DNA from: Methanolobus sediminis
GTDB taxonomy: Archaea; Halobacteriota; Methanosarcinia; Methanosarcinales; Methanosarcinaceae
NCBI RefSeq assembly: GCF_031312595.1
Contig: NZ_CP133592.1
Span: forward strand, 992,001 to 1,056,000
DNA: 64,000 bases
Direction: 5' to 3'
The notes beneath the pieces are model-generated. The model worked only from the letters and a program-made list of their open reading frames with translations, had not been told where the DNA came from and ran no database searches. How positions within the stretch are numbered: position 1 is the stretch's first letter; every line of letters begins with the position of its first letter. Both the position numbers and the translations under genes were made by a program. Below are positions 26,465 to 30,579 of this stretch, piece by piece.

Positions 26465-27046
26465 TTACCTTACCCACACAATCTGAGGTTCTTTTTTGGG
26501 TGGCTCTTCGGTTACCGTAACCTCATAGCCGAAAACAATAGGTGCAACCACCCTATAATCAGGAGTGATTCCAAGCTCATCCAGCAGCTCAGCGCTTTCC
26601 TGAACAAAACAGGCAGAACCTATCCAACAACTTCCGATTCCCATGGAATGAGCAGCAAGCATCATGTTCTCAGCACAAAGGGTACAATCATAGTCCGCAG
26701 TTATAGCTGCGTTATTTCCAAGGATTATAACCAGTACCGGAGCATCATAGAAAATGTTGAATTCTTCCATTGACAGGTATTTTTTCATTTCTTCTATACT
26801 TTCACCGGTAGCCTCTTCCAGTTTTTCCAGAAGACGTGGCTTACAATGATCTGAAATGCGCGTCATCATTTCACGGTTCTTAATCACAACAAAGAACCAG
26901 GGCTGACTGTTGAAAGCCGAAGGTGCATGGACACCTGCATCAATTATGGTTTTGATATCCTCATCACTTACATCCTCATCCACGTATTCACGAACGCTTC
27001 TTCTGGTCTTTATATTTTCAATTACAGAATTTTCTGTTACTCCCAT
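26465..27046 (-). CDS. Nitroreductase-family FMN protein
   Basis: The 193-residue protein has the nitroreductase fold signatures IKTRRSVREYVDEDV (FMN phosphate site), APSAFNSQPWFFVVI, and the C-terminal MGIGSCWIGSACF. Members reduce nitroaromatics, quinones or disulfide-like substrates with NAD(P)H, or act in other flavin chemistry; the substrate cannot be read here. GGGAGTG provides the binding site. It is the last gene of a six-gene minus-strand operon with FTR, glutaredoxin and three Rieske proteins, so a role in the same redox chain is likely by context. Confidence 0.85.
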   Translation of the reverse strand: MGVTENSVIENIKTRRSVREYVDEDVSDEDIKTIIDAGVHAPSAFNSQPWFFVVIKNREMMTRISDHCKPRLLEKLEEATGESIEEMKKYLSMEEFNIFYDAPVLVIILGNNAAITADYDCTLCAENMMLAAHSMGIGSCWIGSACFVQESAELLDELGITPDYRVVAPIVFGYEVTVTEEPPKKEPQIVWVR

Positions 27047-27070
27047 TAATTCACTCCCCCTATTCCCTTT

Positions 27071-27418
27071 TCAATTCTTATTTTTAGATTCCAGGAACTC
27101 TTTCAGCGAGATCTGCATCAGGCTGTCGGGATTATCAACATCCTTATGTACATACATACCACACCAACAACGCTTCATCGCATCATAGTGTTCCCGGTGG
27201 AATGGAATACATGGACACACAAGTTTCATGTCATGTTCCCTTTCACCCGTAAGTCCCTGACAGGGACAGAACGGACTCCCTTTTTCTTTTTCGATGTTGA
27301 CCTCCTGTTCAAGCAGGAATTCAACTAATTCCTCATCGGGACTGAACTTGTATCCCAGAGGGTCCACAACTTTTGAGAACCAGGTTCTCAGTTGCTCTTT
27401 ACGCTTCTCGTTATCCAT
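27071..27418 (-). CDS. Ferredoxin:thioredoxin reductase catalytic chain
   Basis: The 115-residue protein shows the FTR beta signature: CPC (C51, C53), CPC (C68, C70) and CWC (C84, C86). These cysteines bind a 4Fe-4S cluster and form the redox-active disulfide that passes electrons one at a time from ferredoxin to a thioredoxin or glutaredoxin. Spacings (14 and 13 residues between motifs) differ from the plant x16 and x8 pattern, as in archaeal homologues. A glutaredoxin gene ends six bases upstream and is the obvious partner. No variable chain is encoded nearby. Confidence 0.88.
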   Translation of the reverse strand: MDNEKRKEQLRTWFSKVVDPLGYKFSPDEELVEFLLEQEVNIEKEKGSPFCPCQGLTGEREHDMKLVCPCIPFHREHYDAMKRCWCGMYVHKDVDNPDSLMQISLKEFLESKNKN

Positions 27419-27424
27419 AGGAGA

Positions 27425-27673
27425 TCAAAGCTCCAGTAATATAGTGTATTTATCAGGATTGTACCCAACCACAACCTCATCATCGATCTTCACAAACGGA
27501 AATGACATTTCAGACCCATGTGCAAGGCAATCCTCCTTTATGGCTTCCTTGGTCTTATCATCCGCTTTGTCATAATCGGTATATTCAAAAGGAATATCAT
27601 GCTCCCTGAAGAATTTCTTTGCCCTCATACACCAAGGACAGGTGCTCAGGGTGTACATTACTACTTTCTTCAT
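27425..27673 (-). CDS. Glutaredoxin/NrdH-like thiol protein
   Basis: The 82-residue thioredoxin-fold protein has the active site CPWC at residues 12-15 (YTLSTCPWCMRAKKFF) and a cis-Pro in SFPFVKIDDEVVVGY. The size suits NrdH or glutaredoxin-like proteins reduced by FTR rather than by glutathione, which methanogens lack. It overlaps the preceding Rieske gene by four bases (27670-27673) and is followed by FTR six bases later, strongly suggesting an FTR-Grx electron path. Confidence 0.88.
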   Translation of the reverse strand: MKKVVMYTLSTCPWCMRAKKFFREHDIPFEYTDYDKADDKTKEAIKEDCLAHGSEMSFPFVKIDDEVVVGYNPDKYTILLEL

Positions 27674-28005
27674 TTACCTGCACCTTCCTTCCTTAAATTT
27701 ACAAAAACACCTTCTTCCATAATCCTGGTTTCATAGATAGGTACCCTGATCTCTTCTGCATCAAGGAATTTGCCTTCACGGACATCAAATCTCCAGTCAT
27801 GACATGGACATTTGATCACGTATTCTTCAAGAGTTCCTTTTGAAAGAGGACACTCCATATGCGGACATTTGTTGGACATTGCGAAAAAGTCGTCATCGAT
27901 CCTTAGAACAAGTAATTTGTTACCTTCAATAAGCAACGGCTTTTTTTCGCCGTTACCAAGATCGTCTTTCTTAATGGCGAATATCCAGTTATCTTCCTGT
28001 TTCAT
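27670..28005 (-). CDS. Soluble Rieske iron-sulfur protein (copy 1)
   Basis: The 111-residue Rieske protein starts MKQEDNWIFAIKKDDLGNGE. The cluster motifs are CPHMECPLSKG and CPCHDWRFD. The spare cysteines in both motifs (CPHMEC, CPCH) match the disulfide pair of respiratory-type Rieske proteins. I start it at 28005; the open frame to 28071 would overlap the upstream gene. There is no signal or membrane anchor, so it is cytosolic. It is one of three tandem paralogues and probably a small electron carrier. Confidence 0.88.
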   Translation of the reverse strand: MKQEDNWIFAIKKDDLGNGEKKPLLIEGNKLLVLRIDDDFFAMSNKCPHMECPLSKGTLEEYVIKCPCHDWRFDVREGKFLDAEEIRVPIYETRIMEEGVFVNLRKEGAGK

Positions 28006-28018
28006 AGATATATTCCCG

Positions 28019-28327
28019 CTATCGCACAAGAACAGATATATTCCCGTCCTTAAGCTGTGTTTCATATACATTTACCTTAATTTTGTCTGATGCTACATAT
28101 GCTCCTGTACGCAGATCAAAACTCCAGCTGTGACAGGGACATTTAATAGAATGATCCACAAGGATGCCTCCCTGAAGAGGACAATTCATGTGGGGACAAC
28201 GATTCTCAATGGCAAATATTTCCCCGTCAATACGAATCAGGAGAAGCTTTGTATCTCCTGCTTCCACAGGTTTCATTTTGCCTTCTTTCACGTCATTCTC
28301 AGTTGCAGCTATCATCCATGAAGCCAT
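28019..28327 (-). CDS. Soluble Rieske iron-sulfur protein (copy 2)
   Basis: The 102-residue paralogue begins MASWMIAATENDVKEGKMKP and carries CPHMNCPLQGG and CPCHSWSFDLRTG. The cluster Cys and His ligands and the extra cysteine pair are all present. The spacing between motifs is 16 residues, as in copy 1. It lies 13 bases from copy 1 and 23 from copy 3. No oxygenase or cytochrome subunit is nearby that would explain it as a standard ferredoxin component. Confidence 0.88.
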   Translation of the reverse strand: MASWMIAATENDVKEGKMKPVEAGDTKLLLIRIDGEIFAIENRCPHMNCPLQGGILVDHSIKCPCHSWSFDLRTGAYVASDKIKVNVYETQLKDGNISVLVR

Positions 28328-28350
28328 CTGTACTCACCGTCATCCGGCAT

Positions 28351-28665
28351 CTAAAGAAGGACAAGTATATTTCCGTCTTCGACTTTGTTCTCAAAGACTG
28401 AAAGTGATTCGTCCTCATCTCCGAGATACTTACCGGACCTTATGTCGTATTCCCAACCATGGCACGCACATTTGAGCACATATTCTTCACTGAAAGTACC
28501 TTTTGATAAACGACAGCCCATATGTTTACATTTCCCGAAAAGGGAATATACAGTATCATTCTTCCTGATAAGAAGTACAGGTGTCCCTTTTACCCTTGCA
28601 AACTCCATACTGCCTTCTTTAAGGTCATCGTCTTTCATAGCAAAGAACCATGATTTTTCCGGCAT
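28351..28665 (-). CDS. Soluble Rieske iron-sulfur protein (copy 3)
   Basis: The 104-residue first gene of the operon begins MPEKSWFFAMKDDDLKEGSM. Motifs are CKHMGCRLSKG and CACHGWEYDIRSG, with ligands and the spare cysteine pair intact. The Lys and Ala replacing Pro next to the cluster ligands set it apart from copies 1 and 2, which could change its potential. A promoter should lie in 28666-28737, where ATAAATAG-like AT-rich sequence is present. Confidence 0.88.
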   Translation of the reverse strand: MPEKSWFFAMKDDDLKEGSMEFARVKGTPVLLIRKNDTVYSLFGKCKHMGCRLSKGTFSEEYVLKCACHGWEYDIRSGKYLGDEDESLSVFENKVEDGNILVLL

Positions 28666-28737
28666 TTATATCTCCCATAAATAGTCAGGGATTCAAAAAT
28701 ATAAATAGTTGTCGTGAAATAGAAAATGTAGCAATAC

Positions 28738-30102
28738 TTATGCATTGCTACTACTTCTATCCTGGAAATAACGATATTCCCTCCAGACAAGGAACATACT
28801 TATCATGGCAGCCATAAAATCAGATATTGGAAATGCCATCCACACTCCTGAAAGATCGAAGTAATATGGAAGAAGTATCACCAGAGGTATGAGGAACAAT
28901 ATCTGACGACACATTGACAGGAAGAATGATGGTCTTGCTCTGCCAAGTGACTGGAAGAACGTTGTTCCTATCACATTCAGACCTATCAAAGGACTTGCCA
29001 GTACCATTATTCTCAGAGCTGATGCTCCGCTGCTGATAAGGTCAGCATCTGTGCTGAACATGCTGAAGAACGTTCCCGGAAACAGAGACAGCAAAATAAA
29101 ACCTGCCAGTCCGAAGAGGGTGGTGATCATCAATGATTTCTTAACAGATTCATTGACCCTGTCATAATTCTCTGCTCCGTAATTGTACCCGACAATTGGC
29201 TGCAAACCATGTGATATACCTATAATTGGCATTAGTATCAGCATTAACAATTTGATGGCTACACCAAATACAGCTATTGAAAGGTCTCCACCATAGACAG
29301 CAAGCACATTGTTCAGGACAAGCATCATGAAACTGTTTGATGCTCCCATGACAAATGAACCGAAACCAATAGTTGTTATATCTTTTATCAGGTCGAATTT
29401 CGGTGTGAAATTTGCCAGTTCAAGCTTAAGAGGGCTTTTGCCACTCATGTAGTAATATAACAGATAGATAGTACCTGCCAGTTGTGCAAGAACAGTTGCA
29501 AGAGCTGCACCCTTAACACCCATTCCAAATCCGAACATAAGTATTGCATCAAGGAAAATGTTCAGTACACCTGAAAAGACCATGTTGTTCATGGCAACTT
29601 TGGAATTGCCTTCTGCCCTTACAAGATTGTTAAGTACGAAACCAAATGTGAATGCCAGAGTTCCCTGCAATATGACAACAGCATATTCCTTTGCGTAGAC
29701 AAGGTTATCAGCAGTTGCACCGAAGAGGTTCAGTATCGTATCTACATTGAAGAAGAACAAAATCTGGAAAATTATACTGAGTATCAATGTGTAGGAAAAA
29801 ACATTTCCAAGAGTTCTTTCAGCTTTGTTGACATCTCTGGAGCCCAGCAGACGTGAAATTACCGAGGAACCACCAACACCTATGCCTATGGAGATAGCCA
29901 TCATTAGCATCTGAAGTGGAAAAGCAACAGCAACTCCTGCAATACCGAGTACGCTCTGCTCACCAAGTGCTCTTCCTACAAAGAAGGTATCTACAAGGTT
30001 GTAGAATGCCTGGACAAGAAGCCCGATTATTGCCGGTGTGGCCAGTTGCCACAGAAGTTTATTGATCTTCTCGGTACCTAAAAACTCACTTTTTTCATTC
30101 AT
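28738..30102 (-). CDS. MATE-family multidrug efflux transporter
   Basis: This 454-residue, twelve-helix transporter has MATE signatures: an N-terminal half starting KINKLLWQLATPAIIGLLVQAFYN with the VDTFFVG loop, and GIGVGGSSVISRLLGSRD. The second half repeats the fold with PIIGISHGLQPIVGYNYGA. Such proteins export cationic drugs or metabolites using Na+ or H+. It follows a marR gene by 33 bases and is probably repressed by it, with induction by its substrate. Confidence 0.92.
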   Translation of the reverse strand: MNEKSEFLGTEKINKLLWQLATPAIIGLLVQAFYNLVDTFFVGRALGEQSVLGIAGVAVAFPLQMLMMAISIGIGVGGSSVISRLLGSRDVNKAERTLGNVFSYTLILSIIFQILFFFNVDTILNLFGATADNLVYAKEYAVVILQGTLAFTFGFVLNNLVRAEGNSKVAMNNMVFSGVLNIFLDAILMFGFGMGVKGAALATVLAQLAGTIYLLYYYMSGKSPLKLELANFTPKFDLIKDITTIGFGSFVMGASNSFMMLVLNNVLAVYGGDLSIAVFGVAIKLLMLILMPIIGISHGLQPIVGYNYGAENYDRVNESVKKSLMITTLFGLAGFILLSLFPGTFFSMFSTDADLISSGASALRIMVLASPLIGLNVIGTTFFQSLGRARPSFFLSMCRQILFLIPLVILLPYYFDLSGVWMAFPISDFMAAMISMFLVWREYRYFQDRSSSNA

Positions 30103-30135: not shown

Positions 30136-30579
30136 TCAATTAGAGGAATTTCTGTCAAATTCCTCAAGAGTATTTTTTGTTTTATCAAGGAGCTTTCTGA
30201 AAATACGCTCCTCTTCATCAGAGAAGTCTGAAAGCAAAATGCTATTCCATTCCTGAAGAGCAGCGTTTATCGCCGGAACGACTTCCCTGCCTTTCTCAGA
30301 TATGAAAACCCGATATATACGCCTGTCATTCTTGTCCTTTTCACGATAGACATAGCCTTCTTTTTCAAGTGCCGTAATGACTCTGGTTGCCGTGGCTTTG
30401 CTAAACATAAGATAGCGTGCCAGACTTTCCTGAGAACAACCGTCTTTATGAGAGAGCGTCAGCAGGAATGCAAACATCGGACCTTTCAGGTTATACGATT
30501 CAAGCGCATTCTCGATGTAATGGTGATTGTGCGAAAAGATGTATGCGATCTTTGCACCGATTCTTTCAGACTGCTTCAT
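30136..30579 (-). CDS. MarR-family transcriptional regulator
   Basis: The 147-residue winged-helix dimer has the MarR recognition helix in CSQESLARYLMFSKATATRVI and the wing in GYVYREKDKNDRRIYRVFI with the conserved Asp-Arg-Arg. The start at 30579 follows a GGGAATA site. Two adjoining palindromes at 30595-30636 lie between the TATA box and the gene, the expected autoregulatory sites. Divergent or ligand information is absent; the efflux pump downstream is the likely target. Confidence 0.9.
   Translation of the reverse strand: MKQSERIGAKIAYIFSHNHHYIENALESYNLKGPMFAFLLTLSHKDGCSQESLARYLMFSKATATRVITALEKEGYVYREKDKNDRRIYRVFISEKGREVVPAINAALQEWNSILLSDFSDEEERIFRKLLDKTKNTLEEFDRNSSN

Follow-up and report, generated by a model that had tools for sequence, protein, structure and literature searches.

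A conserved Rieske-glutaredoxin-disulfide reductase gene module in archaea and bacteria: a candidate ferredoxin-driven thiol relay

Introduction

The disulfides of Rieske proteins are usually regarded as part of a fixed structure. In the respiratory (bc1/b6f) Rieske proteins, the CxHxxC and CxCH motifs contain two cysteines beyond the cluster ligands which form a disulfide, and this extra pair is absent from the Rieske ferredoxins of dioxygenases (PMC2946596). Reduction of protein disulfides at the expense of ferredoxin is catalysed in plants and cyanobacteria by ferredoxin:thioredoxin reductase (FTR; PDB 1dj7, 2pu9), which combines its catalytic fold with CPC/CPC/CxC cysteines, and a ferredoxin-dependent disulfide reductase with an FTR-type catalytic fold is also known from Methanosarcina acetivorans (PDB 4tpu). 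In Desulfotalea psychrophila, a glutaredoxin (Grx) and a ferredoxin disulfide reductase of FTR type form a fusion (PDB 7pwe). The archaeal glutaredoxin-like protein methanoredoxin from M. acetivorans has been described with coenzyme M as its reductant and not with an FTR partner, and both kinds of protein, archaeal glutaredoxin-like and FTR-type disulfide reductase, are treated as components of thiol relays (PMC7278568).

Here, we describe an operon in a 64,000-nucleotide stretch of DNA from Methanolobus sediminis (hereafter the window) in which Rieske proteins are encoded directly beside a Grx and an FTR-type reductase, and we trace this arrangement through archaeal and bacterial genomes. We found no description of the Rieske, Grx and FTR set in the open-access papers searched, which is weak evidence of absence given that subscription journals lie mostly outside it.

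Results

Reading of the open reading frames together with Pfam identified six co-directional genes on the minus strand (26465-28665). Three of these encode soluble Rieske proteins, R1 (28351-28665; motifs CKHMGC and CACH), R2 (28019-28327; CPHMNC and CPCH) and R3 (27670-28005; CPHMEC and CPCH), the last of which adjoins a Grx with a CPWC active site (27425-27673). They are followed by an FTR-type ferredoxin-dependent disulfide reductase with the cysteine pattern CPC-x14-CPC-x13-CWC (27071-27418) and by an accessory, lineage-specific nitroreductase-family protein with a CxxC motif (26465-27046). The listed start of R3 at 28071 would overlap R2 and the ATG at 28005 is the likely start, so that the gaps are 23 bases (R1-R2), 13 (R2-R3), -4 (R3-Grx), 6 (Grx-FTR) and 24 (FTR-nitroreductase). 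Pfam scores were 64.7-78.8 bits for R1-R3 (Rieske), 44.6 for Grx (Glutaredoxin), 92.3 for FTR (FeThRed_B) and 123.6 for the nitroreductase (Nitroreductase), the last three all above the curated cut-offs of 22.9, 22 and 23.5 bits, respectively. The original prediction of six minus-strand genes separated by no more than 24 bases is thus borne out, with Pfam backing every name, and our reading of the sequences agrees with it that R1, R2 and R3 all possess the extra cysteine pair (CxHxxC and CxCH).

Upstream of the operon, and outside the module, lie minus-strand genes for a MATE exporter (28738-30102) and a MarR-family regulator (30136-30579), identified by Pfam and locus reading, both of which are kept neighbours in many Methanolobus. 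A terminator-like hairpin on the minus strand (28728-28751), with a 10-pair stem and a T-rich tail, overlaps the MATE stop codon; this stretch has a folding z of -5.6, and in an alignment read by eye the stem varies in sequence among several Methanolobus loci with its complementarity kept. Behind it lies a promoter-like block recognised by cross-locus identity, CACGACAACTATTTATATTTTTG (28694-28716, minus strand), which contains an archaeal TATA-like box, is identical in 9/9 aligned Methanolobus loci and recurs exactly in further loci of the three-Rieske type. Given this promoter-like block of their own behind the hairpin, the six genes probably form a transcription unit separate from MATE and MarR. 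A regulon search returned no second CACGACAACTATTTATATTTTTG site in the same genome at up to three mismatches, and a scan for sigma-70 promoters gave nothing above chance, as expected in an archaeon.

Comparison across genomes shows that the conserved unit is one Rieske gene together with Grx and FTR, and that R1, R2, the nitroreductase and MATE/MarR are lineage additions. Within Methanosarcinales, a Rieske gene lies within about 2 kb of an FTR gene in at least 43 of 150 genomes, counted by eye: in all 24 sampled from the same genus, all eight from three further genera of the family, one of seven from another genus and ten from a second family (Methanoperedens by their titles). No such co-location was seen among these 150 genomes in the genera taken as Methanosarcina, where FTR of the module type is also absent. 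The Methanosarcinales loci that we read have the order Rieske-Grx-FTR with one to three Rieske genes, and the identical order was found in four genomes from another family of the phylum. When genomes were scanned with the FTR alignment, 80 named loci emerged from archaea (Methanolobus, Methanomethylovorans, Methanohalobium, Methanoperedens, Bathyarchaeota, Methanomassiliicoccales) and bacteria (Bacillota, Actinomycetota, Chloroflexota, Myxococcota, Acidobacteriota, Omnitrophota, Bacteroidota and others), about 16 phyla as titled by submitters, with most entries being metagenome-assembled genomes (MAGs). The Rieske gene with its cysteine pair precedes FTR on the same strand in 75/75 named loci with a readable full Rieske motif (outside this count are two loci at contig ends, L127 and L137, and L093, L108 and L150), and the median distance from Rieske stop to FTR start is 259 bases, which leaves room for Grx alone. 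Carriers include MAGs of Rhodocyclaceae, Gallionellaceae and Myxococcales, and the module is therefore confined neither to methanogens nor, judged by taxonomy alone, to strict anaerobes. It is patchy in bacteria, since the phylum of locus L117 has this FTR in only two of 247 genomes. The original prediction had made linkage in relatives its touchstone, and that linkage proves to be conserved across Methanosarcinales and in both domains; as a description of the unit it holds for Rieske-Grx-FTR but not for the three tandem Rieske genes and the nitroreductase, which belong to particular lineages.

The arrangement is not due to chance, because dozens of genomes from about 16 phyla have it and it is lacking around 26 other FTRs. 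The latter come from a control set of 31 FTR loci, comprising the 30 best Pfam FTR matches of the order (30 loci had flanks of about 1.5 kb) and one from the window genome itself: all five module-type FTRs had Rieske and Grx beside them, and none of the 26 CHC-type FTRs had either. The module FTRs form a subfamily sharply apart from the rest, scoring at least 177 bits against no more than 71 for all other FTRs in the scan, and in nearly all loci found, the CPC-x14-CPC-x13-CWC signature comes with a pair-bearing Rieske and Grx directly upstream. Six cysteines are invariant in 36/36 FTR sequences and, by analogy with plant FTR, would be the four cluster ligands and the redox disulfide. The window FTR is 95% identical to that of M. 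vulcani B1d, and its predicted fold (pLDDT 93.0) is nearest to 7pwe (Z 11.8) and then to 4tpu (Z 10.4). It falls below the cut-off of the NCBIfam FtrB double selenoprotein family (40.5 bits against 160), and no variable subunit (FTR-A, FeThRed_A) was found in the window genome or in M. acetivorans.

Both active-site cysteines of the CPWC motif in Grx are invariant in 30 relatives, and the nearest solved relatives are 3ic4, 5cax and 3nzn. No true fusion of Rieske with Grx or FTR was found in the loci examined. Two loci have tandem Grx genes (L058 5574-6222 and L062 1000-1665), the second Grx of L058 carrying an FTR-like fragment in the same frame, as if from partial duplication of the module. 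A locus of the Methanoperedens family (L078 5377-5763) has Grx and an FTR fragment in one frame, possibly a deletion or a natural fusion.

Conservation in the Rieske proteins is concentrated in the cluster-binding loops. Across 40 divergent Rieske proteins that adjoin Grx, the only invariant columns are W7, C47, H49, C52, C66, C68, H69, W71 and G78. Six of these nine are the four cysteines and two histidines of the loops, C52 and C68 being the extra pair, which is accordingly as invariant as the cluster ligands. The serine of respiratory Rieske clusters raises the potential and belongs to the hydrogen-bond network of the CPCHGSxY motif. In the pair-bearing Rieske proteins, this bc-type serine is replaced by tryptophan in 180/182 sequences and the tyrosine position holds Phe in 126 and Tyr in 56 (counts that include some genomes fetched twice); in the light of established knowledge of Rieske tuning, these substitutions suggest a low-potential cluster. 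The predicted fold of R3 (pLDDT 92.5) is nearest to the dioxygenase Rieske ferredoxins (2qpz, 3dqy, 1fqt; Z 17-18), which are of similar size and also provide the best sequence match (72.8 bits). With a dioxygenase-type fold and the respiratory cysteine pair, R3 thus joins features that are usually separate. All three window proteins fall below the NCBIfam cut-off for NirD of 74.65 bits (R2 66.3, R3 57.6, R1 35.4). Against the profile, respiratory Rieske proteins mostly reach about 25-36 bits, with one Chlorobaculum Rieske domain at 52.

In the Rieske tree, R3 branches inside the pair-bearing clade and holds the Grx-side position that the module Rieske occupies in other phyla, and R1 and R2 each form a Methanosarcinaceae branch of their own within the same clade. 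A second Rieske gene lies downstream of FTR in 45 of 58 loci outside Methanosarcinaceae. Its product is without the cysteine pair and forms a clade of its own (support 97), the only one from which the pair is missing as a group. Solitary Rieske proteins encoded away from the module (L079, L081) also keep the pair, among them the fourth Rieske of the window genome (G000:C1:2650125-2650352; L079 5036-5374), which groups with R2. Individual sequences deviate in various ways. The R1 protein at L042 4515-4829 (the same gene is found in L102) has CAGH in place of CxCH and has lost one cysteine of the pair with its ligands kept, and a module Rieske in a Methanolobus MAG (L093 5135-5443) reads SPHMDC, the first cluster-ligand cysteine having become serine. 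In Methanohalobium (L067 6066-6400, L108 5400-5696) there is an open Rieske frame with all motifs but no ATG, GTG or TTG before the cluster motif, and translation may begin at an ATA that lies behind an AGGGGG stretch.

Tree distances of Rieske, Grx and FTR are correlated (rho 0.60-0.65 overall and 0.59-0.68 outside Methanosarcinaceae), as expected for a unit that is inherited or transferred together, and in part this reflects the shared descent of neighbours. Transfer of the module between domains is likely; the FTR tree is weakly resolved. The locus L077 (2142-5982) is rearranged, with Grx about 2.5 kb from Rieske-FTR, and L150 (6001-6739) has lost the pair-bearing Rieske and Grx and kept FTR and the downstream Rieske. 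When neighbours were clustered over 57 loci outside Methanosarcinaceae, steady positions were held only by Rieske, FTR, Grx and, in nine loci, a nitroreductase, and beyond these there was no recurrent neighbour that names a pathway. In Methanolobus and Methanomethylovorans the nitroreductase gene comes after FTR, and some Actinomycetota have a different nitroreductase upstream. Five cysteines of the nitroreductase that follows FTR, including those of the CxxC motif, are invariant in 24/24 relatives, and Grx might have this protein, too, as a thiol client.

Discussion

The observations that any account of this module must accommodate are the conserved set of genes, the predicted folds and the fact that every cysteine concerned is invariant. 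We propose, with a confidence that falls just short of even, that the Rieske-Grx-FTR core works as a thiol relay which is driven by ferredoxin and dedicated to one client, the Rieske protein; what we infer is the electron path, the cellular state of the disulfide and the consequence for the cluster. In such a relay, reduced ferredoxin would donate electrons to the FTR-type [4Fe-4S] disulfide reductase, FTR would reduce the CPWC disulfide of Grx, and Grx would in turn reduce the disulfide of the Rieske protein (C52 and C68 in R3) by which the two loops that bind the cluster are stapled together. As this staple opens and closes, the [2Fe-2S] cluster may change in potential, stability or docking, and the Rieske carrier would then work, or be spared, according to the ferredoxin and thiol state of the cell. 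The additional Rieske proteins (R1 and R2 in the window, the downstream pair-less protein in other phyla) could act as alternative or partner carriers. Both the gene order and 7pwe, where Grx and an FTR-type reductase are joined in one solved chain, suggest that Grx accepts electrons from the adjoining FTR. The step from Grx to Rieske is suggested by gene order, by the invariance of the pair and by its absence from Rieske proteins that are not beside Grx. Reduction of the Rieske disulfide by an FTR-Grx pair was already the idea behind the original prediction, and the invariance of the pair beside Grx fits thiol control, while reduction by Grx itself is the part that we infer. That the relay switches a low-potential Rieske carrier through its loop disulfide, and so constitutes an undescribed regulatory system of archaea and bacteria, is possible but in our view doubtful.

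Several observations count against a relay. The disulfide in respiratory Rieske proteins is regarded as structural, and the invariance of the pair could therefore reflect stability alone. The solitary Rieske proteins at L079 and L081 keep the pair without a module, the R1 protein of L042 and L102 shows that not every copy needs it, and some loci are broken or rearranged (L150, L077). The strongest rival to the relay reading is repair or maturation, in which FTR and Grx would keep the Rieske cysteines reduced for insertion of the [2Fe-2S] cluster or for its restoration following oxidation, with the disulfide then serving as a structural lock and no regulation involved. It is in keeping with this that the Rieske gene always adjoins Grx, that two of the invariant cysteines are cluster ligands and that a dithiol Grx beside an iron-sulfur protein would suit thiol repair after oxidation. 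However, the pair-less Rieske of the same operons would need maturation too, yet is encoded apart and is without the pair, and in the bacterial ISC system clusters are inserted by a monothiol Grx, GrxD (PMC10492824), whereas the module Grx has CPWC. We consider this explanation unlikely.

Alternatively, the contact point might be the Rieske cluster and not the disulfide, which would again be structural. Single electrons would then be carried by the Rieske proteins, with thiol proteins (or ferredoxin) on one side and, on the other, an acceptor for which the nitroreductase and the downstream Rieske are examples. The substitutions at the serine and tyrosine positions suggest a low-potential cluster able to trade electrons with thiol or flavin systems, and candidate acceptors are at hand in the second Rieske which follows FTR in so many loci outside Methanosarcinaceae and in the nitroreductase which adjoins the module in Methanolobus, Methanomethylovorans and some Actinomycetota. 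We judge such an outlet to be rather unlikely, as the nitroreductase is absent from most loci, we know of no precedent for direct one-electron transfer from a dithiol to a Rieske cluster, and it leaves unexplained why only the Rieske that adjoins Grx has the cysteine pair. A general antioxidant operon, in which co-expressed redox proteins have separate targets, Grx-FTR reduces protein disulfides in general and does not have the Rieske as a specific client, seems quite improbable. The Grx is indeed akin to archaeal glutaredoxin-like proteins and the FTR to the M. acetivorans reductase (4tpu), both of them kinds that are treated as thiol relay components (PMC7278568), but exactly three genes in fixed order over about 16 phyla with no other recurrent neighbours is not what this would lead one to expect. 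Finally, the link to nitrogenase that the original prediction drew from the position of the operon near nif did not survive comparison. In nine Methanolobus genomes checked, nif is within about 0-17 kb of the module, but no homologue of the nif protein in question occurs in genomes from three other genera with the module, and bacterial loci have no recurrent nif neighbour. With nif near only in Methanolobus, a nitrogenase link is rejected as the general function, and protection of nitrogenase, already largely refuted, is very improbable.

Returning to the thiol relay, the recurrence of the set in about 16 phyla suggests a so far undescribed system, one in which an iron-sulfur protein is controlled by a thiol relay or repaired by it. 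Through a widespread module in which such a Rieske protein has a disulfide reductase of its own, the idea of thiol switching in an iron-sulfur carrier would become open to direct test, and an FTR subfamily that occurs in many uncultured lineages would gain a function. Were the client something else, the module would still be a new ferredoxin-dependent thiol system with CPC-x14-CPC-x13-CWC as its diagnostic signature.

The module can be placed with respect to known systems as follows. The D. psychrophila protein (7pwe) unites the same two functions, is the nearest fold to the window FTR and is a sequence relative of the window Grx; however, it is one fused chain, whereas Grx and FTR are separate in the window, and it belongs to another FTR subfamily (42 bits against the module profile and 23% identity over the FTR part). 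The M. acetivorans reductase (4tpu) has the FTR-type catalytic fold and cysteines in common with the window FTR, and neither genome yielded an FTR-A, but it is a protein of 173 residues deposited as 'Rubredoxin', in comparison with the 115 residues, CWC motif and linkage to Rieske and Grx of the window FTR. Plant and cyanobacterial FTR is similar in catalytic fold and cysteines; the window FTR differs from it in having no variable subunit in its genome, CWC in place of CHC, a longer last spacing and a Grx as its neighbour. Methanoredoxin is of the same archaeal glutaredoxin-like kind as the proteins among the closest solved relatives of the window Grx. The respiratory Rieske proteins share CxHxxC and CxCH with their disulfide cysteines with R1-R3, which are instead soluble, of 102-111 residues, with no anchor, a Rieske domain from the first residues onwards and the hydrogen-bonding serine replaced. 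Each of the protein families is known, and the gene set would be of the ferredoxin-dependent thiol relay type, with a thiol-switched Rieske protein as the possible novel case.
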